A model generated the notes under the pieces. That model had not been told where the DNA came from. It did no database searches and saw only the letters and a program-made list of their open reading frames with translations. Of a DNA stretch of 64,000 nucleotides, positions 29,270-64,000 are shown in pieces (position 1 is the first letter of the stretch; each line of letters begins with the position of its first letter). The stretch is from assembly GCA_025766275.1 (NCBI GenBank), contig JAFKAC010000063.1:1-64000 (forward strand), given 5' to 3'. This DNA is from Lactarius indigo. Its lineage: Eukaryota; Basidiomycota; Agaricomycetes; Russulales; Russulaceae. A program made the position numbers and the translations under genes.

Positions 29270-29476
29270 ACAAAGAAAACAAAAATAACTCCAAAAGTGC
29301 GTCTGCCATTGAATTTTATGATATGTGAGTATGATTGTATGTTATCGATAGGCCCCCTTTTCTGCTTTTAGCGCGCGAGAAAAAAGCGTGATCACGTAAA
29401 AAAAAAAAAAAGCCCAGCCCGACTTGTGACGATCCTACCAGACATTAAATACGGTAGTGGCGGCGAATGCCTCGAA

Positions 29477-30875
29477 TCAGTTGAACGCCTCGTTAACGAG
29501 TGCGTGGTCTCCACGGATGTTAATAAACGAGTACTGCAAAGTTGGGAAAAGGGGGATATCAACGGCAAGTCCTAAGCCTCAATGTTAAGAAAGAACCAAG
29601 AGACGCACCTCTACCAGCTCTGGCCGCGCGCCGGGCAAAATATTAATGTACACCAGGTTCGGCTCCGACCAGAACGGCCTCAGGCCCGCCGCCTCCAGCG
29701 TCGCCCACCAGTTTACAAAGTAATCAAACTTTTCGTGACCTTCATACGCGTGGATCTCGACTTGAAGCTGGCCGACGGGAAATACCTTCTCCTCGCCGGC
29801 GCGTGCGTCGAGGAATGACGTGAGTGCTTCGAATTCTGCACCTTCGATGTCGATCTTGAGGATGTCGATGAACGTGTGTCCTGAGATTGCCTGTCATTAG
29901 CGCTCTTCGTAGGAGCAGAGAACGTGTGCGCACGTACCATTGAGATCCATGAGCGAGTCGAGCGTCCAGAATTTCGGGTTGTCGTTGTCTTCGTGTTTGT
30001 TTGTTCCGCCGAGCGCGAAGGGCTTGAAGTGAGCCCGGTCCCTCAGTTCCGGATCGCCAGTGATCTCGGGTCCCCACTGATTACTCATGTGTCCAATTAA
30101 TTCAGATGATAGAGGCATGGAGGAGAAAACACGCACGCTGTTAACGCTATAGTCATATCCCCAGACCTCACATCCCGGCGCGCGCTTCAACAATGTCGAT
30201 TCGAACGAAGACTCGTCGTTGATACCTATGACATAAAGAGAAGGCCGAGGTCAGTCCGCTCCGCGGAATTGGAGGAAAAGAAGAACAAAATGAAGGAACA
30301 GACCGAAAGAGTAAATCACGCATTTGTCTTGTTTGGCCACGCGGTCCAGACCACAGACCCATTTCCCCCCGTCGCCCAATGTGCCAACGCGTTGCACACG
30401 ATGGGGACACTGGAATGCCGGGATGAAAAAGTCCCCTATCACGATGGTGCTCCGGTCTCAGCAGATTAGATACGGGGGACGAACGGACGACACACATAGG
30501 GTATATAATTCTCCATGTGTTGGATACCTGATGGGGATCAAAGATAAATCACGAAAGGGAGAGCCCGCGCGCACACGTGGGTTTGCCTTTGTGTGCGCGT
30601 GCGAGCTGTGGGAGAGTACAGTAGTAGGCGACTTACGGTTCGACAGCATCATCTCTGGGTCCCCACTTTTTGATCAGCTCCAGCCGTTCTTGTACAGCAA
30701 CAACATAGCGGGCCTCCTCATCCGCGAGCCAAGTACGAAGGGAGCGACTGGGTCCAAAGGCGTCGCGGTAGTACGACGAGAAGCCATTTAAGGTTTCCGA
30801 AAATGACCGGAGGAGAAGAATGACAGCGACGGTGATCAATAGCACGATGGTAATGATGGTCGGACGGAGTGGCAT
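29477..30875 (-). CDS. Membrane-anchored METTL24/FkbM-like methyltransferase M1
   Basis: Probable SAM-dependent methyltransferase; substrate unknown. Seven exons (minus): 30637-30875, 30496-30527, 30304-30435, 30137-30225, 29938-30076, 29609-29880 and 29477-29533. They give 319 codons plus stop with all phases consistent. Residues about 6-24 (TIITIVLLITVAVILLL) form one membrane anchor, so it is a type II membrane protein probably facing the secretory lumen. After a stem comes DFFIPAFQCPH, then VGTLGDGGKWVCGLDR and GCEVWGYDYS (expected SAM pocket), FIDILKIDIEGAEFEAL (the FkbM-type acidic motif) and NLVYINI near the end. The C-terminus is YSFINIRGDHALVNEAFN. An upstream in-frame Met at 30893 exists in copies 1 and 2 but not in copy 3, so I start at 30875. 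The gene opens unit 1 and is transcribed away from the NLR remnant. Confidence 0.75.
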
Positions 30876-31082
30876 AGTAAAAGTCACAGCCAAAGGGTGG
30901 GAGATGATGGAAAGGAAGAAGAGTAACGTTTGAGTGACGTGTCAATCAAAAGAATTGATGCGACCAGAAGACCGCGGGGGACTTCATGCCACATTTCGGA
31001 TATCTCGATCCAATATTCCTACAACCAATGAAGCAAGCGTCACTCTGGCTATCCCATCCATAATCTCATGATATATATAAGC

Positions 31083-32553
31083 TCAGCCGGTCATCAGTAT
31101 GGGCGTCCATCTCCAACCTCGACTAGTACGCACCTGCTCCGTCTGCTGCCTTATAAACGGGCGAATAATTTCCCACAGATATTCATAAACGGGTACTGCG
31201 TTCAGTGGATCAGTCACGTTTCCCAAACCGGAGCAAGGGTATGCACCTCGGCCGGTTTTGGATTCCCACCTAGGTTGTAGTTCACGTACACTAAGTTCGC
31301 TTTGGTCCGGAACCGCCTCGAGCGCGGCCCACCAGCCGTGGAACAAGTCAAACGCGGCATCACGTGTGCAGCCCGATCTACAGCTGCCCGATCGGGAACG
31401 TCATACTCGAAAACGGGCTCAGGAGCTTGTGCGCCGCCAGGAATGCGACCAGCATGTCAAACTCGGCACTCACAACCTTGACCTTGAGCACGTCGATGAA
31501 TGCGTGACTTGCATTCCCACAAAAGATTAGACCGTGAGATGTAAAAAGGAAATGGGAAAGACGGGCCTACCGTTCAGCTGCATGAGCGCATCAAGGGTAT
31601 AGTATTTTGACAAATCGTCGGGTTACGACTGCCCGGCGCCCACTGGAAGAAATGCGCACGCTCCTTCAGGTTAGGCGAATCTTCAATCTCGGGGCCAAAC
31701 TGTGCGCATCAACCAGCTCATAACATATTGGTCGAACTTTGGGAACACACGCTGTTCACGGTAAGTCGCACCCTCAAACTTCACAACCTGGCGGGCGCTC
31801 CAGCAGCGTAGCCTCGAACAACGACTCGCCGTTGATGTCTGTGTGCGCAACCTACGATCAGCCTCTCACCGCCAAAAATGGGGTGATGTTAGACACACCG
31901 GATGAGTAGATCGCACGCCTTGCTTGCTCCGCGATGCACTCCATACCGCATACCCACTTACTGTCGGGGCCGAGCACGCCGATTCGCTCGACATGGTACG
32001 ATGAAATCCCCTGCACAGAAATGTCACGTCGACACTAGAACAGCGGGAGATTAGGCGGCGAACTTACATTTGTTGTAGCTCCTGGTGGTAGGGTACATAG
32101 ACCCCAAATCAAATCCCGTTAGCCAAACATGAATTTATGTTTTTGGCAGGAATAGGAATGAGGGCGCGTCGCAAGCAAGCTCCCAGCACCACCACATCAC
32201 ACTCATAGCTCCCAAAACGCGCCTCAAATAATGGACTGTGAGTGGCCCAAAATAAAAATAAAAAAGAGGGTTGTTCTGTACTCACGACTCGATCTCCACC
32301 TTGGGCCATGCTCCTCGATGAATCCCTCGCATAGATTCAGCATCGCTATGTATCGTACCTCTTCTCACAGACACGCGACGAGCGAGGCTGTATGAAAGTC
32401 GTATGGTTCTCAGTGGTACAGTTCCTCGATTCCAAACGAAAGCGCCCAGAAAAAGAGGCTGAGGGTGACGAGAGAAATGGCCGTGAGGAGAAGTGGGTGC
32501 TGATACGGAGTGTCACGGATGCCAGTTAACAGCGGTCGGGTGACGGCGTGCAT
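31083..32553 (-). pseudogene. Decayed paralogous methyltransferase M1'
   Basis: The first exon (from ATG 32553) still encodes an anchor, HPLLLTAISLVTLSLFFWAL. Further on, the minus strand reads GVLGPDSKWVCGMECIAEQA, parallel to VGTLGDGGKWVCGLDRVAKQ of M1. Then come VVSAEFDMLVAFL (parallel to IEGAEFEALTSFL) and FHGWWAALEAVPDQSEL near the end. Stops and frame changes interrupt all of these, and the acidic DxEG motif is lost. The copy has the M1 order but is far more diverged, so it is an older duplicate that became a pseudogene. It is repeated in unit 2. Confidence 0.6.
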
Positions 32554-32805
32554 TTTTGTGGGTTGTCATGATGGACAAATGAGGCTGGGTGCGGCAAGCG
32601 TTCACGATAAGGTAAGTCAATAAGGAGTGGAGGGACGTTGCACCCTCGTCCGATTTTTTGTTATTGTAGAAGACAGGAGTGCTGGGTACTACCGATACTC
32701 CCGTCTTTTACAACTCAGCGTTGTCAGTCACGACCTGGGTCTGACTGGCTCAGACCCGCGAGCTGGGTGGTATGACTCCGACCTGTTATGTAGGGTCAGA
32801 CTCTG

Positions 32806-33068
32806 TCACTGGAACCGGGAATTGGTCTTTCAGCAAAAAATCTTGGAATAAAACTTGAATCAGACTCAAAGTATTTATTTGTAAATTTATGTGACAATAT
32901 ATTTAAAGTTTATCGATCACATGACAGCTGCAACGGGCGCGTTTCAGGGCATATGATTTACAAACTTTAAATATATTGTCACACAAATTTACAAATAAAA
33001 TACTTTAAGTCTTAATTAAGTTTTATTTCAAGATTTTTTGCTGAAAGATCAAATCCCGGTTCCAGTGA
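32806..33068. mobile_element. Foldback/MITE-like element with ~105-bp inverted arms
   Basis: The left arm (32,806-32,913) and right arm (32,964-33,068) are inverted complements. TCACTGGAACCGGGA, CTTTCAGCAAAAAATCTTG, ATTTGTAAATTTATGTGACA and ATATATTTAAAGTTT in the left arm all recur reversed in the right arm with few mismatches. The spacer is about 50 bases. No coding capacity. The matching site in unit 2 (about 49,000-49,045) lacks it, so it inserted into unit 1, or left unit 2, after the duplication. I could not fix a target-site duplication. Confidence 0.7.
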
Positions 33069-33804
33069 TATGTGATAGTTTTCTATGCTCGTTACTCACG
33101 TGTTCTTTCTCACGTGACACTTTCCTTTTTTATCGATTGGCACAAGCCGTAATGACTAAGCGGACCCACCGATTCGAAAAACGGTCTGACTCTCATTGTG
33201 ACCTGTCAATTGACCCGGACTGACTTGGCTGACTACGACCTATTTGACCCTGAGGCAGGCCGACCCGTACAACATTCATCAGTTATGTCGATGGGATTGG
33301 GATGGGAATGTTGTTTTCAGAGTGAGGACGACCGCCAATAGGCACGAATGAGGCGGTTCTGGGCAGTTCGTGTCGTGAGAATGACTCCCTTCCCCCAGAT
33401 CATAGAGATATGTCAAGGCCCTGGGTGGAAGGAATCGAATGGGATCAGAAGGATCGGAAAGATTCCAACACATCCAATGTAACTTTAACTTCTTCATCCA
33501 TGTCACTTGATGCTTTGATGCTTGGCACCATACGACGTTGGCCATAATGGATAATCGACATGTATGCGAAGGACGTACAATGGAGCGTGCTACGCAGACG
33601 CAGAGTGGGTACGAGTGTGCCAGTTGGTAGATGTAATGTATGCCGATGACAGAACGTGGCTGGAGGGATCATGAAGCGCGCTTGCCTGTAACTTTCCTGA
33701 TAATCACCCTTGATTCCAGCTGGGGTTCCACAGCTCCTCGACCCTCTGAAATCAGGGGGGTCAATTCCTTCTGTTGTGGAGACATGGCTGGTCGAAAACC
33801 GTCT

Positions 33805-34639
33805 ATGAACAGCATTCGAATCGTCGAATCCCAGGGAAGCCGATCCCAGCTAGTAAGTGTTGTAGAGATGACCGGTGCGTACTCAAATCCCGAAGTCGTT
33901 TAATCCTCGATAAGTATCTAATTTCTTCGTTAGTCATCCGAGCACGCAACTTTCCCCGTATCGAGGCTACCTTCGGTGGAAAGAGGGAGTCCTTCATCAC
34001 TATAACCTATGGAGCGACAACGAAGGAGACTAAGACTAAGAGGCGATCTAAGAAGACGAAAATTATTCATATTGACAGACGGACAGCGGTGTGGGACCAG
34101 AGGCGTGACGCTTTGTAGGACTTTCTTCTTTTCAATCTCTTTTTTTTCGGCTGAGAGTTCCTATCAGTTTCCTACAACCGTCTTCATAACGTATTCTACA
34201 TCTTCATGCGAAGCGGTTCAAAAAAAGTGATACCCTTATCGGAACGCTCAAGACGGTGATACCTGCAGAATCTGCGAGTGGTTCGTCTAATCTTCGTAGA
34301 ATTCTTGTTCATATGGCTAACCGAGCATCTTACGCGTAGACATTTGTTTTGTTCTCGGCCATGGCAACGGACAGGCTGGACACTCAAGTTGGGTCACGTC
34401 TGTGGCATTCCGGCCAGATAGCAAGCGGATCGTCTCAGGCTGTTTTGATCAATTCGTCTCATGAACCCCACAACGGGAGACACGGAGACAGGCCCATTCT
34501 CTTTTCACACGGATTGCATCCAGTCCAGGCATTCTCGCCAGATGACCAGCAGATCGTCTCAGGCTCGGAAGATCGAATAGTTTTTGTGTGGAACGACATG
34601 ACGGGAGATACGGGGGCAGGCCCATTTGCTGGACGCTGA
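33805..34639 (+). pseudogene. NLR remnant 1: C2 exons fused to a short WD40 stub
   Basis: Exon 1 from ATG 33805 (MNSIRIVESQGSRSQ) and exon 2 (VIRARNFPRIEATFGGKRE) match the N-terminal C2 exons of the full NLRs. Exon 3 has a TAA within its first codons (after LQPSS). The linker, helical and NACHT exons are absent: sequence passes straight to a WD40 stub near 34,380-34,639 (FSPDDQQIVSGSEDRIVFVW), itself frame-shifted, ending in a stop after FAGR. So 4-5 kb of the gene centre is missing. An equivalent remnant lies in unit 2. Confidence 0.7.
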
Positions 34640-34799: not shown

Positions 34800-35214
34800 G
34801 GAATATAGCTCATCCAACTACGTCCATGGACGAACTTAAAAGGATCTAAATGGGTTTTGTGCGGCCAGATATTACGCGGCCAATGGAGACTTGCCCTATG
34901 CGTTGCAGTGGTGGAATCTGCATTAAGAGTTCGCGCTCGTCACCACAAATCCACCCGTCATCGTAGCAGGAGTCATAACTGGCCAAGACTAGGGCTGACC
35001 TTGAAGCACACGACGCGTCTTGAGTCGAAGGTGTACAAACAGATTTGATGCTATATGTAACACGGCTGCAGGGGCACGGCGCATCATACGTAGACTTAGA
35101 GAGAATAAGATGTGCCCATTTGGCTAGAAATGAGGGAAATTTCAGTACCGATGTTCCGGGCAGTGCAGTGCGTGTTACACCTAATAAACGCAGATCCTCG
35201 ACCCAGAGTGGCAA
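34800..35214 (-). pseudogene. Inverted NLR C-terminal fragment (unit 1)
   Basis: Minus strand reads DDGWICGDERELLMQIPPLQ and then, shifted, the complement of FVHGRSW. This corresponds to EDGWICGDNGELLMWIPP...FVHG-SWTSC, the last 70 residues of the intact NLRs, here in the opposite orientation directly after the remnant. The frame beyond is open to 35,214 but unrecognisable. Confidence 0.6.
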
Positions 35215-38864: not shown

Positions 38865-41800
38865 ATGGACAGCACTCAAATCGCCGGATCTCAAGGAAGC
38901 CGATCTCAGCCACTAAGTGTTGAAGTGACCGGTGCGTACTGGAAGCCAAACTCGTTCAGGCGTTCATAAGTCTTTAATCTCTTTCTTAGTTCTCCGAGCG
39001 CGCAATGTTCCCCAATTGAAGACTACCTTCGGCGGGAAGAGGGAGTACTTCGTCACCATGACCTATGGGGCGACAACGAAGAAGACTAAGAAGCAAACTG
39101 AGAAGAGGACGAAAAGTGTTCAAATTGACCGGCAGATGGCGGTGTGGGACCAGAGACTTGATGCTTTGTAAGACTTTCCTCTTTTCGGTCGCATTTTTCG
39201 GCTGAAAGTTCCTATCAGTTTCGTACAGCCGTCTTCTCATCAAGCTTCTCATCTTATTATATGTCTCTATGTGAAGTGGTTGAAAATAAATAATATCCTT
39301 ATCGGAAGGCATGAGATGGTGATACCCGTCGAATCCGAGAGTAATTCGTCAAATCGTTATAGAATTCTCGTTCATACGACTAAGTTAACATCTCACATGT
39401 AGATATTTCCCTTGCCCTCGGCGACAGCAATGGACAAGCTGTACGATTGGCACCACCAGTCATGCTCGACTTAATGATTACCGTGTCAGCATCTCCGAGC
39501 GACCCTCAAATAATACCGACCGAAGAAGACGACACTCCCGCCAAAGGTGTTCCCACATTCACTGCCCCAGATTCCAGAGCACCTGATCCATCCTCTGCTC
39601 CCGATCATTCTTTACATCCGCCAGATCAACTTCCCGTTCAGAGTGGCACTCCCACGCCACAGGACCAAGGAGAAGTCGAGAAGCTTCTCGTTAGCCTGAG
39701 CGTCGAGGAGTTGGTCGACCGATCGAATACATGGGAAGGGGCTGTTGGGAGGATCAAGTGGGTGATGGATATGCTGAGGCCAGTGGCAGATGTGGGTGTG
39801 GTATTCGTTCTGCCTATCCTCGACTGAGCCAACTTGCGCTCTCAGCTCCATCCAATTGCGCAGATGGCGTATAAAGTACTTTCGGTGATCCCTGAGGTAC
39901 CCCTGCTTATGTTATTATTCGAAGACACACTTATCTGGATACCAGGAACTCTCAAAACAGTATCAACGCGACGGCAACGTCCGAAAGCTAGTCAAGAGCA
40001 TGCACGATGCTTTTGATTTCGCAACCCACGAAGACACTTTGAAGTCCATTAAGCCCAAGTCAAAGGAGGCCGAAATCCTTACTCGAATGTTGCAGGACGT
40101 CTCTAGTTGCAGTGACTTCATCCAATCATATATAAAGGACTCGCAATTCTGTATGTTTTCATTCACTTACTTCATTGGCCAATTCGAGCGTAAAATTTCA
40201 GTGGCGCGGATGGCGAGGAGTATCGGCGGCGGAGTGGAAGAAAAAATTGAGGAGTTGTCCATTGCGTTTGAGGAGAATAAGAAGGCCTTTTTGGATCAAG
40301 CCATCGTGACTACAAAGATAACTGCGTTCCAAATTCTAAACGAAATGGGAAACATCTCGACTAAGGTTGACGGTGTATTTACCCGGCTTGAGTGGGTATC
40401 GAGCCAAGTTTCAGATACTGGTACGTAGTCGTGAACGTGCAGGAATCGTCGAACTGACGACAGTCCCAGCGCTAGATGCAAAAATCGAACAAATCCCATA
40501 TAGGATCGGCTCGCGCTTCACCCCAGACAAGGGTTGTCTTCTTGGAACCCGCACGACTCTCCTCGACTTCATTGTTGATTGGGTCAATAATCCCGCTTCC
40601 GAGCGTGGTCTCGTTATTTTCGGCCAGGCAGGCACGGGAAAGTCGTCCATAGCACATGAGATCGCGCGTCGCTTCGATGAAATGGACCGTCTTACCTTGT
40701 CCTATATGTTTGTACGAAAGGAGCAATCCAAGACCGACGCTCACCATCTCTTTACGAATCTCGCTCACAATCTCGCTGCCCGCTACCCGTTATTCAAAAC
40801 CGCTCTTGGAAGGGTCATAAAGGACAACATCTCGCTTCGACTCGACACACGTGACTACGGCACGCTCTTTCGACGCCTCATCCAGGAACCTCTTAAGGAT
40901 CTGCACATCGTCGGTCCGATTGTTGTTGTAATCGACGCCTTGGATGAGAGTGGAGATACAACTGGCAAAGGCGGGTTACACAGATTTCTCGCCAATCACA
41001 TCTCGGAACTGCCATTGAACTTCCGTGTACTCATCACCTCGCGGCTTGAGGGTGACATCGGGCCTGCGTTTATTGGAGCAGAATCAGTCGTCATCAAATA
41101 CATGAACGACGATGCGCTGAGGGCTACAACGCATTCGGATATTTCCACCTTCCTTCGGGAGAAGCTCGATCCAGCCGATTTCAGACAGTATGGCGAAGCG
41201 CTAGCAAGGAGGGCAGAGGGGCTTTTTCAGTGGGCGGCAGTTGCCTGCGAATACATCCAAGAACCCAAGTCGGTTGGTGGGAAGAGAGAGCGAATCAAGC
41301 ATCTCTTACAATTGGCTACTGATCACCATGGACAAGATCCGCTAGACAAATTATACCATCGGGTCCTTGAAGCATACTTCAAGAACGAAAAGGCAGTACT
41401 TCGGTTTCTGGTTGGACAGCTCCTTGCCGCTTTTGAACCCCTCTCCATCCGCTCCCTGACCACACTGCTACGACACGCCCCCGACGACGACGATGCTCCG
41501 AATTCAGTTGGTGAAACGCTCAGTCAGCTCGGCTCATTGCTGAGTAATGTTATTTCGTCGGATGATACGCTTCCGATCGTTCCCCTTCATACCTCATTCC
41601 GCGATTTTGTGACGAATAAAGAGAAGAGCGGCGATTTTTATGTTGATCTCCGCGTCGCGCACCGGCAATTGGCCCATTCTTGTCTCGGTCTAGCGCTCAG
41701 TTGCCTCAAATTCAACATCTGCAATCTGGAATCGTCATACGTTGCCAATAAAGATGTCAAAGACCTTGAGTCGCGGATTGTCGAGCACCTGCCACCTGCG

Positions 41801-44548
41801 CTGTCGTATGCCTGTCGTTTTTGGGACGATCATTTGAAATGTGTTGGTTTCGAAACCGATCTGTTTGGCAAACTTCAAAGATTCTTCGAGGAGAAATTTT
41901 TGTATTGGCTGGAGGCGCTTAGCTTGATGAGTGGTGTGTGTCTTGCTTCGGCAGCACTTTCGGCTCTGAGCGTATGGTTGGCCTCAAGTGATGGTGTGAG
42001 TAGAAATGTGATATGGTTGGCGCAGGCGAATTACTGATAACTCCGATAGCAGGTCCCTCAAACAGAGCTAGAGCGATTGAGGTCATTCACCAACGACGCG
42101 TCTGTGTTTGTGCGGCATTTCGCGATGGCGATGGCAAAGAGTGCACCACACGTGTATCTTTCTGCTCTACCATTTGTGCCGAGGAATTCGCTCGTTTCTA
42201 TACGCTATTCGAGTTCATTTCCTCGTATGCTGCGGGTGGAACGTGGGCGATTGTCTGATTGGCCACCAACGGAGATGGTGATTTCAAATGCTGGAGGCGC
42301 GGTCAATTGTATTGCACTCTCGCCGGATGGCCACCGGATCGTCTCAGGATCGAGAGATCGAACAGTTCGTGTGTGGAACGCCACAACGGGAGACATGGAG
42401 ATAGGCCCATTGTTTGGACACATGGATGAGGTCCGGTCTGTGGCATTCTCACAAGATGGCCACCGGATCGTCTCAGGCTCGCAAGAAGGAACAATTCGTG
42501 TGTGGAACGCCACAACTGGAGACATGGAGATAGGCCCATTGTCTGGACACACGGATTCGGTCCAGTCTGTGGCATTCTCGCGAGATGGCCAGAGGATCGT
42601 CTCAGGCTCGCATGATCGAACAATTCGTGTATGGAACGCCGCAACGGGAGACACGGAGATAGGCCCATTGCCTGGACACACGGGTTGGGTCCTATCTGTG
42701 GGATTCTCGCAAGATGGCCAGAGGATCATCTCGGGCTCAGATGATCGAACAATTCGCGTGTGGAACGCCACAACGGGAGACATAGAGATAGGCCCATTGT
42801 CTGGACACAATAGTTGGGTCCAGTCTGTGGAATTCTCGCCAGATGGCCAACGAATCGTCTCAGGCTCTTCTGATGGAACAATTCGTGTGTGGAACGCCAC
42901 AACGGGAGACCTGGAGACAGGCCCATTGTCTGGACACGAGGATTCGGTCCGGTCTGTGGCATTCTCGCCAGACGGCCACCGGATCGTCTCAGGCTCAGAA
43001 GATCGAACAATTCGTGTGTGGAACGCCACAACGGGAGATACAGAGATAGGCCCACTGTCTGGACACACGGGTTGGGTCCTGTCTGCGGGATTCTCGCGAG
43101 ATGGCCAGAGGATCGTCTCAGGCTCGCATGATCGAACAATTCGTGTGTGGAACGCCACAAAGGGAGACACGAAGATAGGCCCATTGTCTGGACACAATGG
43201 TTGGGTCCAGTCTGTAGCATTCTCGCCAAATGGTCAACGGATCGTCTCAGGCTCGCATGATGGAACAATTCGTGTGTGGAACGCCATAACGGGATGCATG
43301 GAGATAGGCCCACTGCCTGGACACACAGGTTGGGTCCAGTCCGTGGGATTTTCGCCAGATGGCCAGAGAATTGTCTCAAGCTCGCAAGATGGAACAATTT
43401 GTGTGTGGAACGCCACAACGGGAGACTCGGAGATAGGCCCACTGTCTGGACACAAGGGTTGGGTCCAGTCTGTGGCATTCTCGCCGGATGGCCAGCGGAT
43501 CGTCTCAGGCTCGGATGATGGAACAATTCGTGTGTGGAACACCATAAAGGGAGACTCGGAGATAGGCCCATTTCCTGGACACACGAGTTGGGTCCGGTCT
43601 GTGGCGTTCTCACAAGATGGCCACCGGATCGTCTCAGACTCGCAATATCGAACAATTCATGTGTGGAACGCCACAACGAGAGACATGGAGATAAGCCCAT
43701 CGTCTGGACACACGGATTGGGTCCAGTCTGTGGCATTCTCACGAGATGGCCAGCGGATCGTCTCAGGTTCGCAATATGGAACTATTCGTGTATGGAACGC
43801 CACAACGGGAGACACGGAGACAGGCCCATTGTCTGGACACACGGATTCGGTCCAGTCTGTGGCATTCTCGCAAGATGGCCAGAGGATCGTCTCAGGCTCT
43901 TTTGATGAAACAATTCGTGTATGGAATGCCAGAACGGGAGACACAGAGATCGGCCCATTGTCTGGACACACGGGTTCGGTCCAGTCGGTGGGATTCTCGT
44001 CAGATGGCAGGCGGATCGTCTCAGGCTCTTTTGATGAAACAATTCGTGTGTGGAACGCCGCAACAGGAGACATGGAGATAGGCCCATTGTCTGGACACAC
44101 GGATTCGGTCCAGTCTGTGGCATTCTCGCCAGATGGCCACCGGATCGTCTCAGGCTCGCAAGATGGAACAATTCGCGTGTGGAACGCCACAACGGGAGAC
44201 CCACAGATACACCCATTTACTCGACAGGAAAACCCTGTCGGCTCCGCGACATCCTCACCAAATGATAAGCGGATCTTCCCATCTGGAGATAAGTCAACTC
44301 ATGCGTTGGATGCTACCACAGGAAGTCTGATAACTATCACACAGGTCAACTTTACGGACTGCTCTGTGATAAATGAGGACGGATGGATATGTGGTGATAA
44401 TGGCGAACTTTTGATGTGGATTCCACCGACGCATAGGGCAAATCTTCATAGGCCGCGTACTATCTGGGTCGCTGGCGAACACGAGACCCGCTTGGACCTT
44501 TCTAATTTCGTCCACGGATGTAGTTGGACGAGTTGTATTGACACCTAG
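38865..44548 (+). CDS. NLR1: C2 - helical - NACHT - WD40 NLR-type (STAND) receptor
   Basis: Cytosolic signal-transducing NTPase of the fungal NLR class, likely sensing non-self or modified host targets. Nine exons: 38865-38931, 38990-39167, 39219-39383, 39428-39791, 39846-39896, 39946-40150, 40202-40420, 40470-41995 and 42053-44548. They give 1,756 codons plus stop; every intron is GT-AG and in phase. A C2-like domain (about residues 20-137; VLRARNVPQLKTTFGGKRE) is followed by a Pro/Ser/Asp-rich linker to about 258. A helical region follows (259-416; starts LHPIAQMAYKVLSVIP). The NACHT domain has Walker A GQAGTGKS (468-475), Walker B VVVIDALDE (568-576) and sensor VLITSRLE. Fifteen 43-residue WD40 units follow (about 1017-1661), then a 95-residue C-terminal cap. 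All key residues are present and no stop interrupts it. It resembles HET-E/HNWD-type proteins but with a C2 rather than a HET domain. Closest relative: NLR2 at 55.8 kb. Confidence 0.88.
42326..44260 (+). repeat. WD40-coding minisatellite: 15 x 129 bp
   Basis: Fifteen head-to-tail units of exactly 129 bp, no unit out of frame. The unit consensus is DGQRIVSGS-xD-TIRVWNAT, then TGDxEIGPLSGHTxxVQSVAFSP. Variation concentrates just after SGS, in the two residues after GHT, and at the residues flanking SV and preceding FS. Units 8-11 are the most divergent (for example AITGCME, NTIKGDS, TTRDMEIS); the rest are near-identical. Confidence 0.95.
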
Positions 44549-48785: not shown

Positions 48786-48789
48786 TTTT

Positions 48790-49600: not shown

Positions 49601-49618
49601 TGGCCTGTCAAAAACCGT

Positions 49619-50599: not shown

Positions 50600-51000
50600 C
50601 TGAGGAGTCAATATAACTCATCCGACTACATCCGTAGACGAACTTAGAAAGATCTGAGTAGATTTCGTGTTTGCTAGCGACCCAGATATTACTCGGGCGA
50701 CGAAGCTCGATGAAGATTTGTCCTGTGCGCTAGTGGAGCCCCCTATTAAAAGTTTGCACTCATCACTACAAATCCATTCGTCGTCATATCAGGAGTCAAT
50801 AGGCAATTGGCCGAGACTAGGGCAGACCTCGAAGCACGCGACACCTCTGAGCTGAAGGCGTACAAACAGATTTGATAGCATAGGTGCAGGTGCGCGGCGC
50901 CTCATACGTAGACTTGAAAGGATGAGATGTGCCTATTTGGCTAGAAATAAGGGGGATATCACTACCAATGTTCCGGGCAGTGCATCGCGTGTTACGCCTA
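50600..51000 (-). pseudogene. Inverted NLR C-terminal fragment (unit 2)
   Basis: The complement of the NLR end is recognisable at 50,615-50,790 (complement of the FVHG-S block, then DDEWICSDE-KLL), matching the inverted scrap at 34.8-35.0 kb in unit 1. Confidence 0.55.
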
Positions 51001-51800: not shown

Positions 51801-52263
51801 CAGCGTCCATCAACAATATGGAGTGTGAAGGGACAGGAAGAAGTGACGCGTACGATGTCGATGACGTCACCACGTCTGCTGAGTACTGATACGGTCCCAG
51901 CCTTCTCCATCTCTCGATCTGCACATCAGGCTTCTTGACCTTGTTTTGCACCCGGACCAGCAGCGTATCCCTCAGCCTCAGTTTCAACGTACCTTCTAGC
52001 CAGCCATCTTCGACGGATTTCTCGATGTCAGCCTGGTATTTCCTTTTGGACTCTGCCTCCCTGGTTGCCACAGCAGCTGTGACCGCCGCGTCAATGGCCT
52101 GCTTTTGGTCTTCTGCCATGGGAATGTGTACATGTGCAGATTCTTGCGCCTTGGCCATCGTGGCTTCGACTGTCTTATCCCGTTCCTCGTGGTGCTTCGC
52201 GACGAGGCTTCTTCCAGAGTCCATAGTTCTTCGGCGTGTGGCTTGGTAAATTCCTTGAGTCAC
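51700..52263 (-). CDS. Hypothetical charged helical ORF (187 codons)
   Basis: Open minus frame, no known domain. The middle (KQAIDAAVTAAVATREAESK and on through KYQADIEKSVEDGWLEGTL) is Ala/Glu/Lys-rich and strongly helical-looking, unlike shadow frames. The C-terminal third (from about 51,700-51,900) overlaps repeat R and looks non-coding, so the true gene end or an intron probably lies near 51,900. Unit 1 keeps only the part up to 36,298. It could be one exon of a larger gene extending to 53.2 kb. Confidence 0.35.
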   Translation of the reverse strand: MTQGIYQATRRRTMDSGRSLVAKHHEERDKTVEATMAKAQESAHVHIPMAEDQKQAIDAAVTAAVATREAESKRKYQADIEKSVEDGWLEGTLKLRLRDTLLVRVQNKVKKPDVQIERWRRLGPYQYSADVVTSSTSYASLLPVPSHSILLMDAAVASHPDSGTTGCAFSAFVATRCSSQQLSFAAL

Positions 52264-53227
52264 GTTGCGGGTGGAGCGTTGTCCACTTCACTTGTAGCTT
52301 TTCCACCGCGGCCTTGATGTCAGCGTCCTGCTCCTCTGCTCCCCTCGGCCGCGCCTTCTGTTCGTCGCGTACCTGAGAGCTGAGTCTTCCTGCCGGCAGT
52401 CAGAGGAAGCCAGACGCAGAACGACGCGGCGAGTACTATTATGTTGGTCATACAGAGGCCATGTTCGGCTCCTCTGCCTCCTTTTGCGCGATCTGAGGTG
52501 CCACCATATTAGTACGATGAAGCGTGACTTTATAGGGACGCTACCTTGGCCAGCTAAAGAGTCTTATATGACCCTTGACAAGATCTGCCTTGCTACCCTC
52601 TCGCTCCTTGGCTTCTGTCCCCTCGGAGGTGGGGTTATCCCATGCCTCCTTGTCTGCGTAAATGAGCACCCGCAAAATGGTCTGCCATCCCATTGTCGTC
52701 CGCCGCGGTGGTGTGACTGGTCATTAGCGACCTCAGCGTCCATCACCACCCCATCTTCTCTACATCGCCTAATCGAGCTCGCAGAGGTCCGGTTGCTCCA
52801 ATGCGCAAACCTTCCGCTGCGAACGCTGCTGCGGGTACTGCAGGCTCTGCTGGAAGGGAAAGTCAACTTGTGCGTAGTCATGGGGGAGATTCGGCGCATG
52901 AAGGGGGCATCGGTATCCGTGGCGTCGTACTAGCCTGGCACGGCAGGTCTGGCGGGGTCGCTATCATGGGTGCTGCGGAGAAACGAACGCGGGAGGAGGG
53001 AAAGGTGGATACAGAGGACTCGGCTGCGAAGCGCCTCCTGCTGACCGTAACGCGAACACCAGTGACTCAACTGGTGGAGCGCATCACCTTGTTGTACAAT
53101 CATGTCTATCCCTCGTGCTTCGTGATATTGGTCTTGTTTGGACTTATTCGCCTATCTCATTCGTTCGCTTTGTCCATTTTTGTCGTCTCGCATCTTATAC
53201 ATAGAAGGACTTGTGCGTCATGTCATC
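52103..53227. other. Unit-2-only segment of about 1.1 kb
   Basis: The sequence on both sides (ATGGCCTGC on the left; GCTTAAAACTTGTTCGTGCT on the right) is joined directly in unit 1 near 36,297-36,305. The segment includes the 5' half of the charged ORF and GC-rich frames with no recognised domain. I read it as a deletion in unit 1 because it interrupts an otherwise open frame there. Confidence 0.55.
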
Positions 53228-55822: not shown

Positions 55823-58800
55823 ATGGACAGCACTCAAATCGCCGAATCTCAGGGAAGCCGATCTCAGCCACTAAGTGTTGAAGTGACCGGTGCGTACTTG
55901 AAGCCAAACTCGTTCAGGCGTTGACAGGCCTTTGATTTCTTTATTAGTTCTCCGAGCGCGCAACGTTCCCCAATTGAAGACTACCTTCGGTGGGAAGAGG
56001 GAGTACTTCGTCACTATGACCTATGGGGCGACAACGAGGAAAATTAAGAAGCAAACTAAGAAAAGGACGAAAAGTGTACATATTGACGGGCAGACGCTGA
56101 CATGGGACCAGAGGCTTGATGCTTTGTAGGAATTTCTTATTTTCAACCATATTTTTCGGCTGAAACTTCCTATCAGTCTTGCACAACCGTCTTCACGTAT
56201 TATTTTGCGTCTTTATGCGAAGAAATTGATAAAAGATGATATTCTGATCGGAACGCATGAGATGACGTTACCGATCGAATCTCAGATTAGTGCGTCTATT
56301 CATTATAAGATCCTCGTTTATGCGACTAAGTAAGCATATTACATGCAGATATTTCCGTTGCCCTCGGCGACAGCAAAGGCCAAGCTGTACGATCGACGCC
56401 GCCAGTCACGCTCGACTTAACGATCGCCGTGTCAGTGTCTCCGAGCGACCCTCAAACAATGCCGACCGGAGGAGACGACACTCCCGCCGAAGATGTTCCT
56501 AAATCCACTGCCCCAGATTCCAGAGCACATGGTCCATCCTCTGCTCCCGATCATCGTTTACATCCGTCAGATCGGCTTCCCGTTCAGAGTAGCACTCCCA
56601 CGCCACAGGACCAAGGAGAAACGTCCCATGTCGAGAAGTCTCAGATTGTTCTCGTTAGCGCTGATGAAGTCGAGGAGTCGATCGACCAATCGAATACATG
56701 GGAAGGGGCAGTTGGGAGGATCAAGTGGGTGATGGATATGCTGAGGCCAGTGGCAGATGTGCGTGTGGTATTCGTTCTGCCTATCCTCGACTGAGCCAAC
56801 TTGCGCTGTCAGCTCGATCCAATTGCGCAGATGGCGTATAAAGTACTTTCGGTGATCCCTAAGGTATTCCTACTTATGTTATTATTCGAACACACACTTA
56901 TCGTATGTCTATCTGGGTACCAGGAACTCTCAAAACAGTATGAACGCGACAACAATGTCCGAAAGCTAGTCAAGAGCATGCACGATGCTTTTGATTTCAC
57001 TAGCCGCGAGGACATTCTGAAAACCATTAAGCCCGAGTCAAGGGAGGCCGAAATCCTTACTCGAATGTTGCAGGACGTCTCCAGTTGCAGTGACTTCATC
57101 CAATCATATATAAAGGACTCGCAATTCTGTATGTTTTCATTCACCTACTCTATTGGCCAATTTGAACGTATAATTTCAGTGACGCGGATGGCGAAGAGTA
57201 TGGTGGGCGGAGTGGAAGAAAAAATTCAGCAGCTATCCATCGCGTTTGACGAGAATAAGAAGGCTTTTTTGGATCAAACCGTCGTGGCTACAAAGATAAC
57301 TGCGTTCCAAATTCTAAACGATGTGGGAAACATCTCGGCCAAGCTTGAGTGGGTGTCGAGCCAAGTTTTAGATACTGGTACGTAGTCATGAACATGCGGG
57401 AGTTATCGAACTGACGATCGTCCCAGCGCTAGATGCAAAAATCGAACAAATCCCATATAGGACAGGCTCGCGCTTCGCCCCAGACAAGGGTTGTCTTCCG
57501 GGAACCCGCACAACTTTCCTCGACTTCATTGTTGATTGGGTCAACAATCCCGCTTCCGAGCGTGCTCTCATTCTTTTCGGCCAAGCAGGCACGGGAAAGT
57601 CGTCCATCGCACATGAGATCGCCCGTCGCTTCGATGAAATGGACCGTCTTACATCATCCTATGTGTTTGTACGGAAGGAGCAATCCAAGACCGACGCTCA
57701 CCATCTCTTTACGAATCTCGCTCACCATCTCGCTGCCCGCTACCCGTTATTCAAAACGGCTCTTGGAAGGGCCGTAAAGGACAACATCTCGCTTCGACTC
57801 GACACACGTGACTACGGCACGCTCTTTCGACGCCTCATCCAGGAACCTCTTAAGGATCTGCACATCGTCGGTACGATTGTTGTTGTAATCGACGCCTTGG
57901 ACGAGAGTGGGGATACAACTGGCAAAGGCGGATTGCACAGATTTCTCGCCAATCACATCTCGGAACTGCCATCGAACTTCCGTGTACTCATCACCTCGCG
58001 GCTGGAGGGTGACATCGGGCCTGCGTTTATTGGAGCAGAATCAGTCGTCGTCAAATACATGAACGACGATGCGCTGGCCACAACTCGTTCGGATATTTCC
58101 ATCTTCTTTCAGGAGCGGCTCGATCCAGCCGATTTCGGACAATATGGCGAAGCGCTGGCAGGGAGGGCGGAGGGACTTTTTCAGTGGGCGGCGGTTGCCT
58201 GTGACTACATCAAAAAACCCAAGTCCGTTCGTGAGAAAAGAGAGCGAATCAAGCATCTCTTACAATTGGCCGCTGGTCACGGTGGACAAGATCCGCTGAA
58301 CGAGTTATACAAAGGGGTCCTTGAAGAATACTTCAAGGGCGAAGAGGCAGTATTTCGCTTTCTGGTGGGACAACTCCTTGCCGCTTTTGAACCCCTCTCC
58401 ATCCGCTCCCTGACCACACTGCTACAACACGCCCTTGACGACGACGACGCTCCGAATTCAGTTGGTGAAACGCTCAGTCAGCTCGGCTCATTGCTGAGTA
58501 ACGTCACTTCATCGGATGATACGCTTCCGATAGTTCCTCTTCATACCTCATTCCGCGATTTCGTGACGAATAAAGAGAAAAGCGGCGATTATTATGTTGA
58601 TCTCCACGACGCGCACCGCCAATTGGCCCATTCTTGTCTCGGTCTAGCGCTCAGTTGCCTCAAATTCAACATCTGCAATCTGGAATCGTCATACGTTGCC
58701 AATAAAGATGTCAAAGACCTCGAGTCGCGGATTGTCGAGCACCTGCCACCTGCACTGTCGTATGCCTGTCGTTTTTGGGACGATCATTTGGATGGTCTCG

Positions 58801-61394
58801 ATTTCGAAACCGATCTGTTTAGCAAACTTCAAAGATTCTTCGAGGAGAAATTTTTGTATTGGCTAGAGGCGCTTAGCTTGATGAGTGGTGTGGGTCTTGC
58901 TTCAGCAGCACTTTCGGCTCTGAGCGTATGGCTGGCCTCGAGTGATGGTGTGAGTGGAAATGTGAATTGGATGGCGCGGGCGAGTTACTGATAGTTCTGA
59001 TGGCAGCAGGTTCCTCAAGAGGTTCCTCGAGCAGAGCTAGAGAGATTGAGGTCATTCATCAACGACGCGTCTGTTTTTGTGCGGCATTTCGGAATGGCGA
59101 TGGCAAAGAGTGCACCACATGTGTATCTTTCTGCTCTACCATTTATGCCGAGGAATTCGCTCGTTTCTAGGCACTATTCAAGATCATTTCCTCGTATGCT
59201 GCGGGTGGAACGTGGGCAATTGTCTGATTGGCCATCAACGGAGATGGTGATTTCAAACGCTGGAGGCGCAGTCGATTGCGTTGCACTCTCGCCGGATGGC
59301 CAGCGGATCGTCTCAGGCTCTTTAGATGGAACAATTCGTGTGTGGAACGCCACAACGGGAGACGCGGAGATAAGCCCATTGTCTGGACACACGCGTTCGG
59401 TCCAGTCTGTGGCATTCTCGCCAGATGGCCACCGGATCGTCTCAGGCTCTTTAGATGGAACAATTCGTGTGTGGAACGCCACAACGGGAGACACGGAGAT
59501 AGGCCCATTGTCTGGACACGCGGGTTGGGTCCGGTCTGTGGGATTCTCGCCAGATGGCCACCGGATCATCTCAGGCTCTTTAGATGGAACAATTCGTGTG
59601 TGGAACGCCACAACGGGAGACACGGAGACAGGCCCATTGTCTGGACACACGGATCCGGTCCTGTCTGTGGGATTCTCGCCAGATGGCCACCGGATCATCT
59701 CAGGCTCTTTAGACGGAACAATTCGTGTGTGGAACGCCACAACGGGAGACACGGAGATAAGCCCATTGTCTGGACACACGGATCCGGTCCAGTCTGTGGG
59801 ATTCTCGCCAGATGGCCACCGGATCATCTCAGGCTCTTTAGATGGAACAATTCGTGTGTGGAACACCACAACGGGAGACATGGAGATAGGCCCATTGTCT
59901 GGACACACGGGTTGGGTCCAGTCTGTGGGATTCTCGCCAGATGGCCACCGGATCGTCTCAGGCTCTTATGATGGAACAATTCGTGTGTGGAACGCCACAA
60001 CGGGAGACACGGAGATAGGCCCATTGTCTGGACACACGCGTTCGGTCGAGTCTGTGGCATTCTCGCCAGATGGCCACCGGATCGTCTCAGGCTCTTATGA
60101 TGGAACAATTCGTGTGTGGAACGCCACAACGGGAGACATGGAGATAAGCCCATCGTCTGGACACATGGATTGGGTCGAGTCTGTGGCATTCTCACGAGAT
60201 GGCCAGCGGATCGTCTCAGGCTCTTATGATCGAACAATTCGTGTGTGGAACGCCACAACGGGAGACGCGGAGATAGGCCCATTGTCTGGACACACGGGTT
60301 GGGTCCAGTCTGTGGGATTCTCGCCAGATGGCCACCGGATCGTCTCAGGCTCTTCTGATGGAACAATTCGTGTGTGGAACGCCACAACGGGAGACGCGGA
60401 GATAAGCCCATTGTCTGGACACACGCGTTCGGTCGAGTCTGTGGCATTCTCGCCAGATGGCCACCGGATCGTCTCAGGCTCTTCTGATGGAACAATTCGT
60501 GTGTGGAACGCCACAACGGGAGACACGGAGATAGGCCCATTGTCTGGACACACGGATCCGGTCCTGTCTGCGGGATTCTCGCCAGATGGCCACCGGATCG
60601 TCTCAGGCTCTTATGATGGAACAATTCGTGTGTGGAACGCCACAACGGGAGACATGGAGATAGGCCCATTGTCTGGACACACGGATCCGGTCCTGTCTGC
60701 GGGATTCTCGCCAGATGGCCACCGGATCGTCTCAGGCTCTTATGATGGAACAATTCGTGTGTGGAACGCCACAACGGGAGACACGGAGATAGGCCCATTG
60801 TCTGGACACACGCGTTCGGTCGAGTCTGTGGCATTCTCGCCAGATGGCCACCGGATCGTCTCAGGCTCTTCTGATGGAACAATTCGTGTGTGGAACGCCA
60901 CAACGGGAGACACGGAGATAGGCCCATTGTCTGGACACACGGATCCGGTCCAGTCTGTGGCATTCTCGCCAGATGGCCACCGGATCGTCTCAGGCTCTTC
61001 TGATAGAACAATTCGTGTGTGGAACGCCACAACGGGAGGCACGGAGACACACCCATTTACTCGACAGACAAAATCAGTCGGCTCTGTGAGATCCCCACCA
61101 AATGACAAGCGGATCGTCTCATCGGGAGATAAGTCAACCCATGCATTGGATGCTACGACAGAAAACCTGATAACTACCACACAGGTCGACTTTACGGACC
61201 GCTCTGCGATGAATGAGGACGGATGGATATGTGGCGATAATGGCGAACTTTTAATGTGGATTCCACCAGTGCATAGGACAGGTCTTTATCGGCCGCGTAC
61301 TATCTGGGTCACTGGCAAACACGAGACCCGCTTGGACCTTTCTAACTTCGTCCATGGACGTAGTTGGACGAGTTGTATTGACGCTAGGAGATAG
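55823..61394 (+). CDS. NLR2: C2 - helical - NACHT - WD40 NLR-type (STAND) receptor
   Basis: Paralogue of NLR1 with the same nine-exon layout: 55823-55889, 55948-56125, 56177-56329, 56374-56758, 56813-56863, 56924-57128, 57180-57377, 57427-58949 and 59010-61394. They give 1,714 codons plus stop, in phase throughout. C2-like domain about residues 20-132 (VLRARNVPQLKTTFGGKRE); linker to about 261; helical region to 412. Walker A GQAGTGKS is at 464-471, Walker B VVVIDALDE about 100 residues later, and the VLITSRLE sensor is present. Fourteen WD40 units (about 1016-1617) and a 97-residue cap follow. Versus NLR1 it lacks seven residues in exon 7 (the KVDGVFTR stretch), gains four at the exon 9 start (VPQEVPRAE) and has one WD40 unit fewer. 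The NACHT exon is nearly identical to NLR1, while the linker and WD40 arrays differ most. Confidence 0.88.
59295..61100 (+). repeat. WD40-coding minisatellite: 14 x 129 bp, highly homogenised
   Basis: Fourteen in-frame 129-bp units. Most differ only at the residue after SGS (L, Y or S), at the pair after GHT (RS, GW, DP, DW) and at the Q/L/E and A/G positions around SV-F. Units 1-5 share SGSLDGT, units 6-8 SGSYDGT/SYDRT, units 9-10 and 13-14 SGSSDGT/SSDRT, units 11-12 SGSYDGT: block patterns that suggest duplication of adjacent units. The last unit has the degenerate FTRQTKSVGSV ending shared with NLR1. Confidence 0.95.
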
Positions 61395-62240
61395 AACCGC
61401 TACGGAAATATGTTTTCTCTTACAGGGTTTGAAGTGTAATTGTCTGGATTATGTCCGAGCTCATTAACACGCCAGTACTATTTACCAGCTTGTTTCCCGG
61501 ACAGCCTTGTGTTGATACTGGGGATTGTGACCCGTTCGATGTGAGCATATCCGTCTTGTTTCAGCAGCGGAGCCGATAGGAAACTGGTCGAGACTGGGGC
61601 ACAACGTACGCACAACCTTGAAGCACGCGAGGACTCCGTGTCGATGGCGAACAGACGGGGCTAGTCCTGGATGTGGTACTGGCACCTCATATGTACACTT
61701 AAATAAATACACGAATCGCCTGCCCCCTCTACTACCGATACATTCTCACATGGGATCAGACGAGGGGCCCTTTTTTTGAGGACGAATTTGAGCTAATGTT
61801 GGCCGAATGTTTGAAACGGTGGAGTTGCATCCTTGGATATGCGCAGATCTTCGACCCATAGAGAGGTCTGCCCACCGCAGTGAAGGGAAGATCCTCCCCC
61901 AAGGTACGAAGACATATCGGAACCATGGGTGGAGACAAAAGGCGAATAATAGAATAGAAAGAAATCGACGTGCGCGAAGTTCAAAGGCGGCCCAAGATTA
62001 TGTCCTAACCCGGTAAGTACACCTAGAGACGCGAACCCAAACGCGGAAGATTGCAAATTAACTACCACTCCGCATCACGTTCGACGCACGTAGTCAGCCA
62101 ACAGAGTTGGCGAGGGTATTGCATACTTTTTTGGTCGGAATCAACGAAGGAGATTTGACTTACTCCAATTCCCAAAAAAAGAAATTCACCAAAGGGTCTG
62201 AGGGATATCTAATTCGTGTCCGTCCCAGTGACAATAATTA
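61395..62240. other. 3' flank of NLR2 and junction to unit 3
   Basis: Colinear with 44,549-45,595 without the 292-bp insertion. No intact gene. The junction to unit 3 lies near 62,240. Confidence 0.5.
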
Positions 62241-64000
62241 TTAACAAAGAAAAACAAAAATAAGTCCAAAAGTGCGTATGCAATGGAATTTTATGATATG
62301 TGAGTGTGATCGTATGTTATCGATGGGCTCTCTTCCCTGCTCTTAGCGCGCGAGCAAAAAGCGTGATTACGTACCCAGCCCCGACTTGCGGCGATCCGAC
62401 CAAACGTGAAAAGCGATGGTGGCGGCGAATGCCCCAAATCAGTTGAACGCCTCGTTAACGAGCGCGTGGTTTCCACGGATGTTGATAAACGAGTACTGCA
62501 AATGAAAAGGGGGGAACGAATCAACTCTCAAGCCTCGGACCATCAGAAGAACACACAGACCTCTGCTAGCTCTGGCCGCACACCGCGCACGATATTGATG
62601 TACACCAAGTTCGGCTCCGTCCAGAACGGCCTCAGGCCTGCCGCCTCCAGCTCTGCCCACCAATGCGCAAAGTACTCAAAGTTCTCGCGACCTTCGCGCG
62701 CGTGGATCTCCAGCTGGAGCTGGCCGACGGGGAGCACCTTCCCCTCGCCCGTGCGTGCGCTAAGGAACGTCGTGAGCGCATCGAATTCTCCGCCCTCGAT
62801 GTCGATCTTGAGGATGTCGATGAACGTGTGTCCTGAGGATTGCCTGTCATCAGCAAGCCCTTTCTTTCGTAGAGGAACGGAGATAGCGCGTGCGCTCACG
62901 CACCATTAAGCTCCATGAGCGAGTCGAGCGTCCAGAATTTGGGGTTGTCGTGGTCTCCGTGGTTGTTGGTTCCGCCGAGCGCGAAGGGCTTGAAATGAGC
63001 CCGGTCCCTCAGTGCCGCATCGCCGGTGATCTCGGGTCCCCACTGGTTACTCATATGTCTTGTTCAGTAGGCAGAGATAAGGAGGAGGGCACACGCACGC
63101 TGTTGACGCTATAGTCATATCCCCAGACCTCACATCCCGGTGCGCGCTTCAACAATGTCGATTCGAACGAAGACTCGTCGTTGATGCCTATGACATAATG
63201 AGAAACATCAGTACGCTCTGCGGGACCGAGAAAACGAAATGAAGAAGCAGACCGAAGGAGTAGATCACGCATTTGTCTTGTTTGGCCACGCGGTCCAGAC
63301 CGCAGACCCATTTCCCCCCGTCGCCCAATGTCCCGACGCGCTGCACTCGATGGGGGCACTGGAATGCGGGAATGAAAAAGTCCCCTATTGCGATGGCGTT
63401 CCGGGTCTCAGCAGGTCGGGATACGGGGGACGAACGAACGACGCACACAACGTATAGAATTCTCCATGAGTCGGATATCTAATGGGGATCGAACAGACGG
63501 CGTGAGATCAATCACGAAAGGGCGAGGCCCAGGGCACATGCGTGGGTGTGCATGTGCAAGCTGTGGGAACGTAGAACGCAACTCACGGCTCTACAGCATC
63601 ATCTCTGGGTCCCCACTTTTTGATTAGCTCCTGCCGTTCTTGTATGGCCACCGCATAGAGCGCCTCCTCATTCGCCAGCCAAGTACGGAGGGAGCGACTG
63701 GGTCCAAAGGCGTCGCGGTAGTACGACGAGAAGCCGGTTAAGGTTTCCGAAAATGACCGGAGGAGAAGAATGAGAGCGACGGTGATCAATAACAAGATAG
63801 TAAGGACGGTCGGACGGGGCGGCATAATGAAAGTGGCAGTCGTGAGGGTAGGAAAGGAAAAGAGAGTGGGGTTTTTATTATTGACAAGGAGTGATGTGTC
63901 AAACGAAAGAATTGATGCGTCTAGAAGACTGCGGAGACTCCACCTCGACTCCGCGCCACACTTCAGACGCCTCGATGTAATATTCCTACAACCAATCACT
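62241..64000. repeat. Tandem segmental duplication, unit 3 (partial, leaves the window)
   Basis: Opens with the same unit-start words as units 1 and 2 and carries methyltransferase M3. The rest lies beyond the window. Confidence 0.8.
62439..63825 (-). CDS. Membrane-anchored METTL24/FkbM-like methyltransferase M3
   Basis: Third copy, apparently intact, with the same seven-exon layout as M1. The start MPPRPTVLTILLLITVALIL gives a single N-terminal anchor. Then come FSSYYRDAFGPSRSLRTWL, DFFIPAFQCPHRVQRVGTL, GKWVCGLDRVAKQDKCVIYS, GCEVWGYDYSVNS, WGPEITGD, FKPFALGGTNNHGDHDNPKF, FIDILKIDIEGGEFDALTTF, EPNLVYINIVRGVRPELAE and the C-terminal YSFINIRGNHALVNEAFN. The Trp codon at the exon 2-3 join is TGG, unlike M2. 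The upstream Met used by M1 and M2 is missing here, which supports starting at MPPRP in all copies. Substrate unknown; type II anchoring suggests the secretory pathway. Confidence 0.75.

Follow-up and report, generated by a model that had tools for sequence, protein, structure and literature searches.

Organization of the array

The window analysed here comprises positions 1-64000 of contig C252 (345,902 bases) of Lactarius indigo, from an assembly of 90.3 Mb in 291 contigs. Its right-hand part carries an array in which methyltransferase (MT) blocks alternate with genes for NOD-like receptors (NLRs), in the layout MT block - NLR - MT block - NLR - MT block. An identical arrangement was found on a second contig, C35 (1,560,789 bases), where the order MT1-NLR1-MT2-NLR2-MT3 lies on the minus strand at ~1042-1077 kb. 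C35 is colinear with C252, the main allelic blocks being 95-98% identical, and 1 kb taken from the cyclase gene next to the array gave two genome-wide matches, one on each of these contigs. These observations indicate that the assembly contains both haplotypes, designated A (C252) and B (C35). MTb denotes a paralogue of MT and the prefix psi- a dead copy; the features of the array are collected in Table 1.

Comparison of the contig with itself (28000-100000) placed the unit starts at 29268, 45596 and 62242, almost to the base where an initial annotation of this DNA had set them (near 29,270, 45,600 and 62,245), and the colinear blocks that a dot-plot extended downstream should reveal were present. 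The spacing of 16.3-16.9 kb announced between equivalent landmarks held approximately, with offsets of 15.8-16.9 kb between neighbouring units. On the other hand, the array is not the triplication of a ~16.6-kb unit that had been proposed. There are two full units of ~16.3-16.6 kb each, and the third consists of the first ~3.4 kb only, since the similarity of unit 3 to units 1 and 2 is confined to 62242-65651, the MT block. The locus is thus made of two units and an outer MT block, and the colinear contents claimed for all three copies apply to units 1 and 2, in blocks (29268-32790, 83.5% identity; 33689-36297, 81.1%; 36297-44152, 88.7%), unit 3 sharing the MT block alone. The paralogous units are ~8-25% different from each other, and the segmental copy number is equal in both haplotypes.

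The junction that precedes units 2 and 3, described earlier as ~140 near-identical bases, is indeed shared, with a length of ~173 bases, and it is similar rather than near-identical (161/173 positions, 93.1%, in C252; 154/171, 90.1%, in C35). Indels between the copies were recovered as well: the inserts of 285 and 289 bases, and 1.1 kb of extra sequence in unit 2. The two inserts, present only in haplotype A (~287 bases), are unlike each other, their best match covering 25 bases. The gene content given for the unit was also borne out, namely an NLR-type receptor, a methyltransferase with a predicted membrane anchor and decayed relatives of both.

Table 1. Features of the array on contig C252
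Feature	Coordinates	Strand	Remarks
MT1, Methyltransf_22/FkbM	29480..30875	-	Open frame, 319 aa; 7 exons, 6 introns; open also in C35
psi-MT1b, dead MTb copy	31140..32511	-	11 stops/frameshifts in C252, 10 in C35
Insert, ~285 bases	32807..33091		Long foldback (71 + 50 nt arms); 27 other bases there in C35
Decayed NLR, unit 1	33689..34636	+	Retains N-terminal exons plus roughly two WD40 units; from homology comparison
Inverted NLR C-terminal tail, unit 1	34802..35019	-	Adjoins the decayed unit 1 copy; from homology comparison
NLR1	38865..44548	+	9 exons, 1755 aa; C2-like N-terminus, NACHT (NPHP3_N), 15 WD40; open in both haplotypes
Insert, 289 bases	45132..45420		Absent from C35
Junction, 3' flank of NLR1	45423..45595		~173 bases; counterpart of 62069-62241
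MT2, chimeric dead methyltransferase	45792..47148	-	In both haplotypes codon 91 is a stop and the frame shifts at 202
Crossover point in unit 2	46984..46995		Homologous to 30711-30722 and 63661-63672
psi-MT2b, dead MTb copy	47413..48743	-	Broken in both haplotypes
Decayed NLR, unit 2	49505..50437	+	From homology comparison
Inverted NLR C-terminal tail, unit 2	50604..50705	-	From homology comparison
Extra sequence in unit 2, 1.1 kb	52103..53226		Not in unit 1; both haplotypes; 80% similar sequence on C231
NLR2	55823..61394	+	14 WD40 here, 5 in C35; open in both haplotypes; alleles diverge abruptly more from near 58.8 kb
Junction, 3' flank of NLR2	62069..62241		Counterpart of 45423-45595
MT3, open-frame methyltransferase	62441..63825	-	C35 copy identical to deposited L. 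indigo protein P0001
MT3b, MTb paralogue	contig 64068-65494		Past the window; free of stops and frameshifts over the aligned part only, both haplotypes

Chimeric structure of unit 2

The origin of unit 2 was investigated in the aligned MT blocks of the three units in both haplotypes, which contained 669 two-state sites fixed within units. Units 1 and 3 have the same state at 92 of these, which were excluded, and 577 informative sites remained. To the left of 46984, unit 2 was grouped with unit 3 by 189 of 229 sites, and to the right of 46995 it was grouped with unit 1 by 304 of 348. The chi-square value of this split (280) was reached in none of 1000 shuffles, the best of which gave 18, and the breakpoint was common to both haplotypes. 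In terms of identity, the left arm of unit 2 shares 89.0% with unit 3 and the right arm 92.0% with unit 1, as against 77.1-78.9% in the other comparisons. These data indicate that unit 2 is a chimera, the product expected of unequal crossing-over between the outer, misaligned MT blocks MT1 and MT3. The earlier suggestion that the array arose by unequal crossing-over is therefore upheld by one sharp breakpoint.

Synonymous divergence (dS) was highest between MT1 and MT3 (0.35), followed by NLR1-NLR2 (0.15) and by the allelic comparisons (0.03-0.035 for the NLRs; 0.02-0.08 over five genes). Since the dS of 0.15 between NLR1 and NLR2 exceeds the NLR allelic value of ~0.03, the duplication predates the split of the two haplotypes. 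In addition, psi-MT1b and psi-MT2b have lesions in common: the stop at 51 and the frameshift at 192 occur in every one of the four copies, whereas a stop at 156 is present in three copies, as is a frameshift at 210. The lesions common to both pseudogenes are absent from MT3b, which indicates that MTb had already died in the left block.

From these observations we infer an order of events. The ancestral locus would have held one NLR between two MT blocks that were already ~22% diverged, the left one made of MT1 and a dead MTb and the right one of MT3 and MT3b. Misalignment of MT1 with MT3, followed by recombination inside MT exon 1, would have generated a second NLR together with the chimeric MT2, and the death of MT2 would have come after the crossover.

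Two observations weigh against a single clean event. A short stretch near 45.8 kb resembles neither parent, so that the left arm is imperfectly clean, and the identity between units 1 and 2 per 500 bases ranges from 64 to 96%, an unevenness that implies later conversion or decay. A gene conversion, in which unit 3 converted the left part of MT2 in an already tandem array, separately from the duplicating crossover, has to be considered in this respect. Patchy exchange does occur at the locus, as seen in the mosaic 3′ part of NLR2 described below. However, the unit-3-like tract runs from the junction to a single breakpoint, as the duplication crossover itself demands, and the two arms of unit 2 differ from their parents to a similar extent (11% and 8%), so we regard conversion as an unlikely origin of the chimera.

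Methyltransferase genes of the array and their association with NLRs

The MT reading frames were judged by spliced alignment to a relative from L. akahatsu. MT1, MT3 and MT3b were free of stops and frameshifts in both haplotypes, MT3b over its aligned part only. MT1 matched the Pfam domains Methyltransf_22 and FkbM, both above cut-off, and its N-terminal hydrophobic stretch may act as a membrane anchor. The ratio of nonsynonymous to synonymous divergence (dN/dS) for MT1 and MT3 was 0.17, indicating constraint. A search for solved structures similar in sequence to the methyltransferase gave no matches at E<=1.

A tree was built from 22 proteins, chosen among 120 listed of 752 found, plus six from the L. 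indigo genome. This tree identifies MT and MTb as old paralogues in the Russulaceae, with support of 100/100 for the MTb group; among the L. indigo sequences, MT1 was joined to MT3 with support of only 85/80. The array enzymes thus resemble other Methyltransf_22/FkbM-type methyltransferases of Agaricomycetes in their two Pfam domains and in having relatives across Russulaceae, and differ from them in their tandem and chimeric copies. A Lactarius hatsudake protein, P0041, appeared by eye to be MTb-like in its N-terminal half and MT-like in its C-terminal half; a further recombination or a merged gene model may account for this.

Convergent NLR-MT pairs were also detected on contigs C231 and C216, where the MT is only a fragment. 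In these homology comparisons, from which matches confined to WD40 repeats were excluded, the MT sequences on C188 and C269 had no match to the NLR non-repeat part within 10 kb each; C237 lay outside the comparison. A possible pair on C1 was left out of the count, as its sole MT match spans 30 residues (E 4.7e-4) and has the same orientation as the NLR. Because it is eroded beside two other NLRs, the MT looks like a passenger, and the simplest reading is that it was carried along, serving as the repeat that recombined.

It might be argued instead that MT and NLR form a functional module, co-duplicated for joint action, the MT for instance modifying a target guarded by the NLR. The recurrence of convergent pairs at the array, C231 and C216 and the open, constrained frames of MT1 and MT3 speak for such a module. 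Against it, the MT is fragmentary on C231 and C216 while the NLR frame there is open as far as checked, MT occurs on C188 and C269 without a match to the NLR non-repeat part in the 10 kb compared, relatives of MT exist across Russulaceae, and MT2 is dead while the frame of NLR2 is still open. The dead MT2 and the MT fragments in particular led us not to favour the module, which appears quite improbable.

Domain structure of NLR1 and NLR2

The NTPase domain of the receptors was recognised as NPHP3_N (E 3e-24, above cut-off) and, below cut-off, as NACHT (E 5.5e-5). The motif GQAGTGKS, which we take to be the P-loop, is present in NLR1 and NLR2 of both haplotypes. The first 429 residues of NLR1 contained no HET domain at a threshold of E<=1. 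In the non-repeat part, dN/dS between NLR1 and NLR2 was 0.46-0.47, and the frame of the relative on C231 is likewise open. NLR2 was considered as a pseudogene and this was rejected, since the apparent TAG is intronic and splicing leaves an open frame through residues 1-1000 and onward to the stop. The NLR family is large in this genome: in the two haplotypes together the NACHT exon matched at least 82 stretches, the scoring having covered 77 of 478 candidates. Further NACHT matches lie on the same contigs, for example at 173-341 kb of C252 and 575-936 kb of C35, which places the array near a large NLR cluster.

Allelic differences in the NLR2 WD40 array

The number of WD40 repeats in NLR1 was 15 in both haplotypes; in NLR2 it was 14 in A and 5 in B. 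Repeats that were off-length or lacked GH at positions 4-5 were dropped from the nearest-repeat tests and from the ratios of nonsynonymous to synonymous polymorphism (pN/pS), which left 14/15 and 13/15 repeats for the NLR1 alleles, 13/14 for NLR2-A, 4/5 for NLR2-B and 12 of the 13 recognised in the C231 gene, in which an 86-residue gap suggests 14. For NLR1, the same-numbered repeat of the other allele was among the nearest in 26 of 27 cases, and the partner of the exception was one of the off-length repeats dropped; for NLR2, this was observed in 0 of 17. Furthermore, the nearest repeat was found only in the own array for 11/13 repeats of NLR2-A (2 tied), 4/4 of NLR2-B, 8/12 of C231 and 0/27 of NLR1. 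Repeat position 26 was L, Y or S in all 14 repeats of NLR2-A and E in all five of NLR2-B.

The divergence between the NLR2 alleles extends into the non-repeat part, in which 15/2800 sites differed before 58.6 kb and 37/648 after it; in the NLR1 alleles, taken as control, 45/2798 and 16/645 sites differed in the corresponding parts. The best split of NLR2 allelic divergence was located at 58805 (0 of 500 shuffles). Between 59060 and 59230, NLR2 of haplotype B equals the NLR1 of its own haplotype at 10/10 differing sites, and NLR2 of A equals this NLR1 at none. Between 58800 and 59060, NLR2 of A equals the NLR1 of haplotype B at 14 of 21 differing sites, and NLR2 of B does so at 6. The 3′ non-repeat part of NLR2 is thus a mosaic, in both directions, between the alleles and NLR1. 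Upstream, the effector/NACHT half (55921-58420) was 99.2-99.8% identical between haplotypes, as compared with mostly 94-98% across the rest of unit 2, an identity that probably reflects recent shared ancestry or exchange. From this allelic pattern it follows that the effector/NACHT half of NLR2 is nearly shared, whereas replacement or shuffling has affected the sensor end. The initial annotation had regarded the array as a fast-evolving recognition locus; fast change was seen in the WD40 array of NLR2 and not in segmental copy number.

Variation within the repeats was assessed at four codons fixed beforehand, the variable codons 7, 9, 25 and 27 of Podospora, which form pairs around the conserved codons 8 and 26 as given in PMC1805685, mapped by spacing to 8, 10, 26 and 28. 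These replaced entropy-picked positions, set aside as circular. Nonsynonymous change was concentrated at the four codons in five genes, with only 24, 5, 19, 35 and 37 of 20000 random codon sets reaching the observed concentration. In the NLR1 alleles, pN/pS at these codons was 3.84 and 3.13, as compared with 0.56 and 0.49 elsewhere in the repeat.

Several results weigh against the reading of the locus proposed below. On average, repeats of NLR2-A are nearly as similar to those of NLR2-B (92.2% identity) as they are to one another (93.3%). The C231 gene showed a weaker contrast in pN/pS (1.26 versus 0.45), and in NLR2 the values for the rest of the repeat were 5.46 and undefined, which makes the ratio uninformative there because synonymous change is too rare (pS near zero). 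Position 40, in NLR1 and C231, and positions 6, 7 and 16 in some genes, vary as strongly outside the four codons. The C2 match of the NLR1 N-terminus is weak (E 7.7e-4; 20.1 bits against a Pfam cut-off of 22), and the five-repeat NLR2 allele of C35 may be non-functional.

The difference of 14 versus 5 repeats is also the part of the data most exposed to assembly artefact, WD40 arrays of NLRs being unreliable in short-read assemblies according to PMC12222747. A collapse or expansion of the array as a whole is nevertheless highly improbable, as the same architecture stands on two contigs ~3% apart, each with its own indels and insertions, the paralogous units are far from identical and the chimera point is common to both; misassembly limited to C252 is very unlikely because C35 holds the same array.

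Structure prediction of two WD40 regions without alignment gave mean pLDDT (predicted local distance difference test) values of 29.0 and 31.9, with no usable fold, so that the propeller counts considered below are inferred.

Neighbouring sequence

On one strand at 7750-13556 the window encodes leucine-rich repeats, after which come a PP2C and a guanylate/adenylate cyclase domain, an arrangement that we take to be the fungal adenylate cyclase architecture. Upstream of unit 1 there are degenerate remnants with similarity to the unit, one of them derived from MT (22447-22683) and the others located at 25321-25778, 27529-27874 and 28558-28742; they are possibly older, eroded units. In haplotype B only, a 19.2-kb insertion (C35 1077346-1096512) lies ~90 bases upstream of unit 1; it contains a 389-base direct repeat, 100% identical, and of its 14 frames of at least 150 aa three were scanned, two of which are Copia-type (gag; reverse transcriptase plus integrase). 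Downstream, a second tandem array (C252 77722-87965) consists of three copies ~3.5-3.8 kb apart, with 80-84% identity and one open frame with a borderline HAD-hydrolase match. C35 has a further 3.8 kb at this array, so its copy number probably differs between haplotypes.

Discussion

The receptors of the array are best compared with the HNWD/NWD genes of Podospora anserina (het-e, het-d, het-r), whose repeat identity, allelic repeat numbers and variable codon pairs are described in PMC1805685, PMC2873952 and PMC12222747. Like these, they combine NACHT with WD40 repeats of high internal identity: the mean nucleotide identity within arrays was 85.3-95.1%, against the >80% used for HNWD. They also share differences in repeat number between alleles and variation at two codon pairs, each flanking a conserved codon, with a nonsynonymous excess reached by 5-37 of 20000 random sets in the five genes. 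NLR1 and NLR2 are therefore HNWD-like in repeat identity, repeat-number change and site of variation. They are not members of HNWD, because no HET domain was found. The N-terminus is HET in Podospora and C2-like in L. indigo, the repeat unit has 42 aa in the former and 43 aa in the latter, and functional alleles usually carry 11 repeats in Podospora, as compared with 15, 14 and 5 here. The Podospora genes are allorecognition NLRs; those of L. indigo are not known to cause an incompatibility reaction. In PMC12222747, the 11 repeats of functional Podospora alleles plus three cryptic ones are modelled as two seven-blade propellers; by this count, the five-repeat NLR2 allele would form a single propeller or be inactive.

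Among basidiomycetes, C2-NACHT-WD40 candidates offer the closest domain parallel, as the accessible sections of PMC4986451 report the C2 domain in NLRs of only few basidiomycetes, with WD40 prevailing there; those sections describe neither a two-haplotype allelic pair nor a crossover-made array. Literature searches yielded nothing on NLRs in Lactarius among the matches listed, and nothing on basidiomycete NLR haplotypes.

In fungal NLRs, sensing by the WD40 repeats switches the NACHT ATPase and frees the N-terminus to act. By analogy, the array NLRs are most likely sensors of nonself or modified self: the WD40 array would bind a ligand, the NACHT ATPase would switch and oligomerise, and the C2-like N-terminus would act at a membrane, leading to cell death or defence. 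After the duplication, NLR1 would have kept a stable WD40 array, and the repeats of NLR2 would have been turned over by intragenic recombination together with patchy exchange with NLR1-like sequence. Altogether, we consider it probable that the (MT-NLR)2-MT array stems from one unequal crossing-over, with the NLRs as such sensors and the MT, a gene conserved in Russulaceae, as a passenger.

A further proposal, speculative and rather unlikely as it stands, is that NLR2 is a basidiomycete determinant of allorecognition (somatic incompatibility), the duplication having freed a copy to diversify, so that the two nuclei of this dikaryon would carry alleles that share the effector/NACHT half and differ in their sensors. 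If this were true, the five repeats of the C35 allele, together with roughly two degenerate ones in its tail, would make up a single seven-blade propeller, and the C252 allele would form about two.

The origin of the array appears ordinary, although its history is unusually legible, and the breakpoint documents how an NLR tandem pair arose; the fast-changing sensor is the interesting part. A Russulales NLR whose N-terminus is of another type shows sensor variation resembling that of Podospora. According to PMC8229728, the somatic incompatibility of basidiomycetes is poorly understood and its models are borrowed from ascomycetes; a near-identical effector half joined to a replaced sensor half, at an NLR locus represented by both haplotypes, would provide concrete candidates for it.

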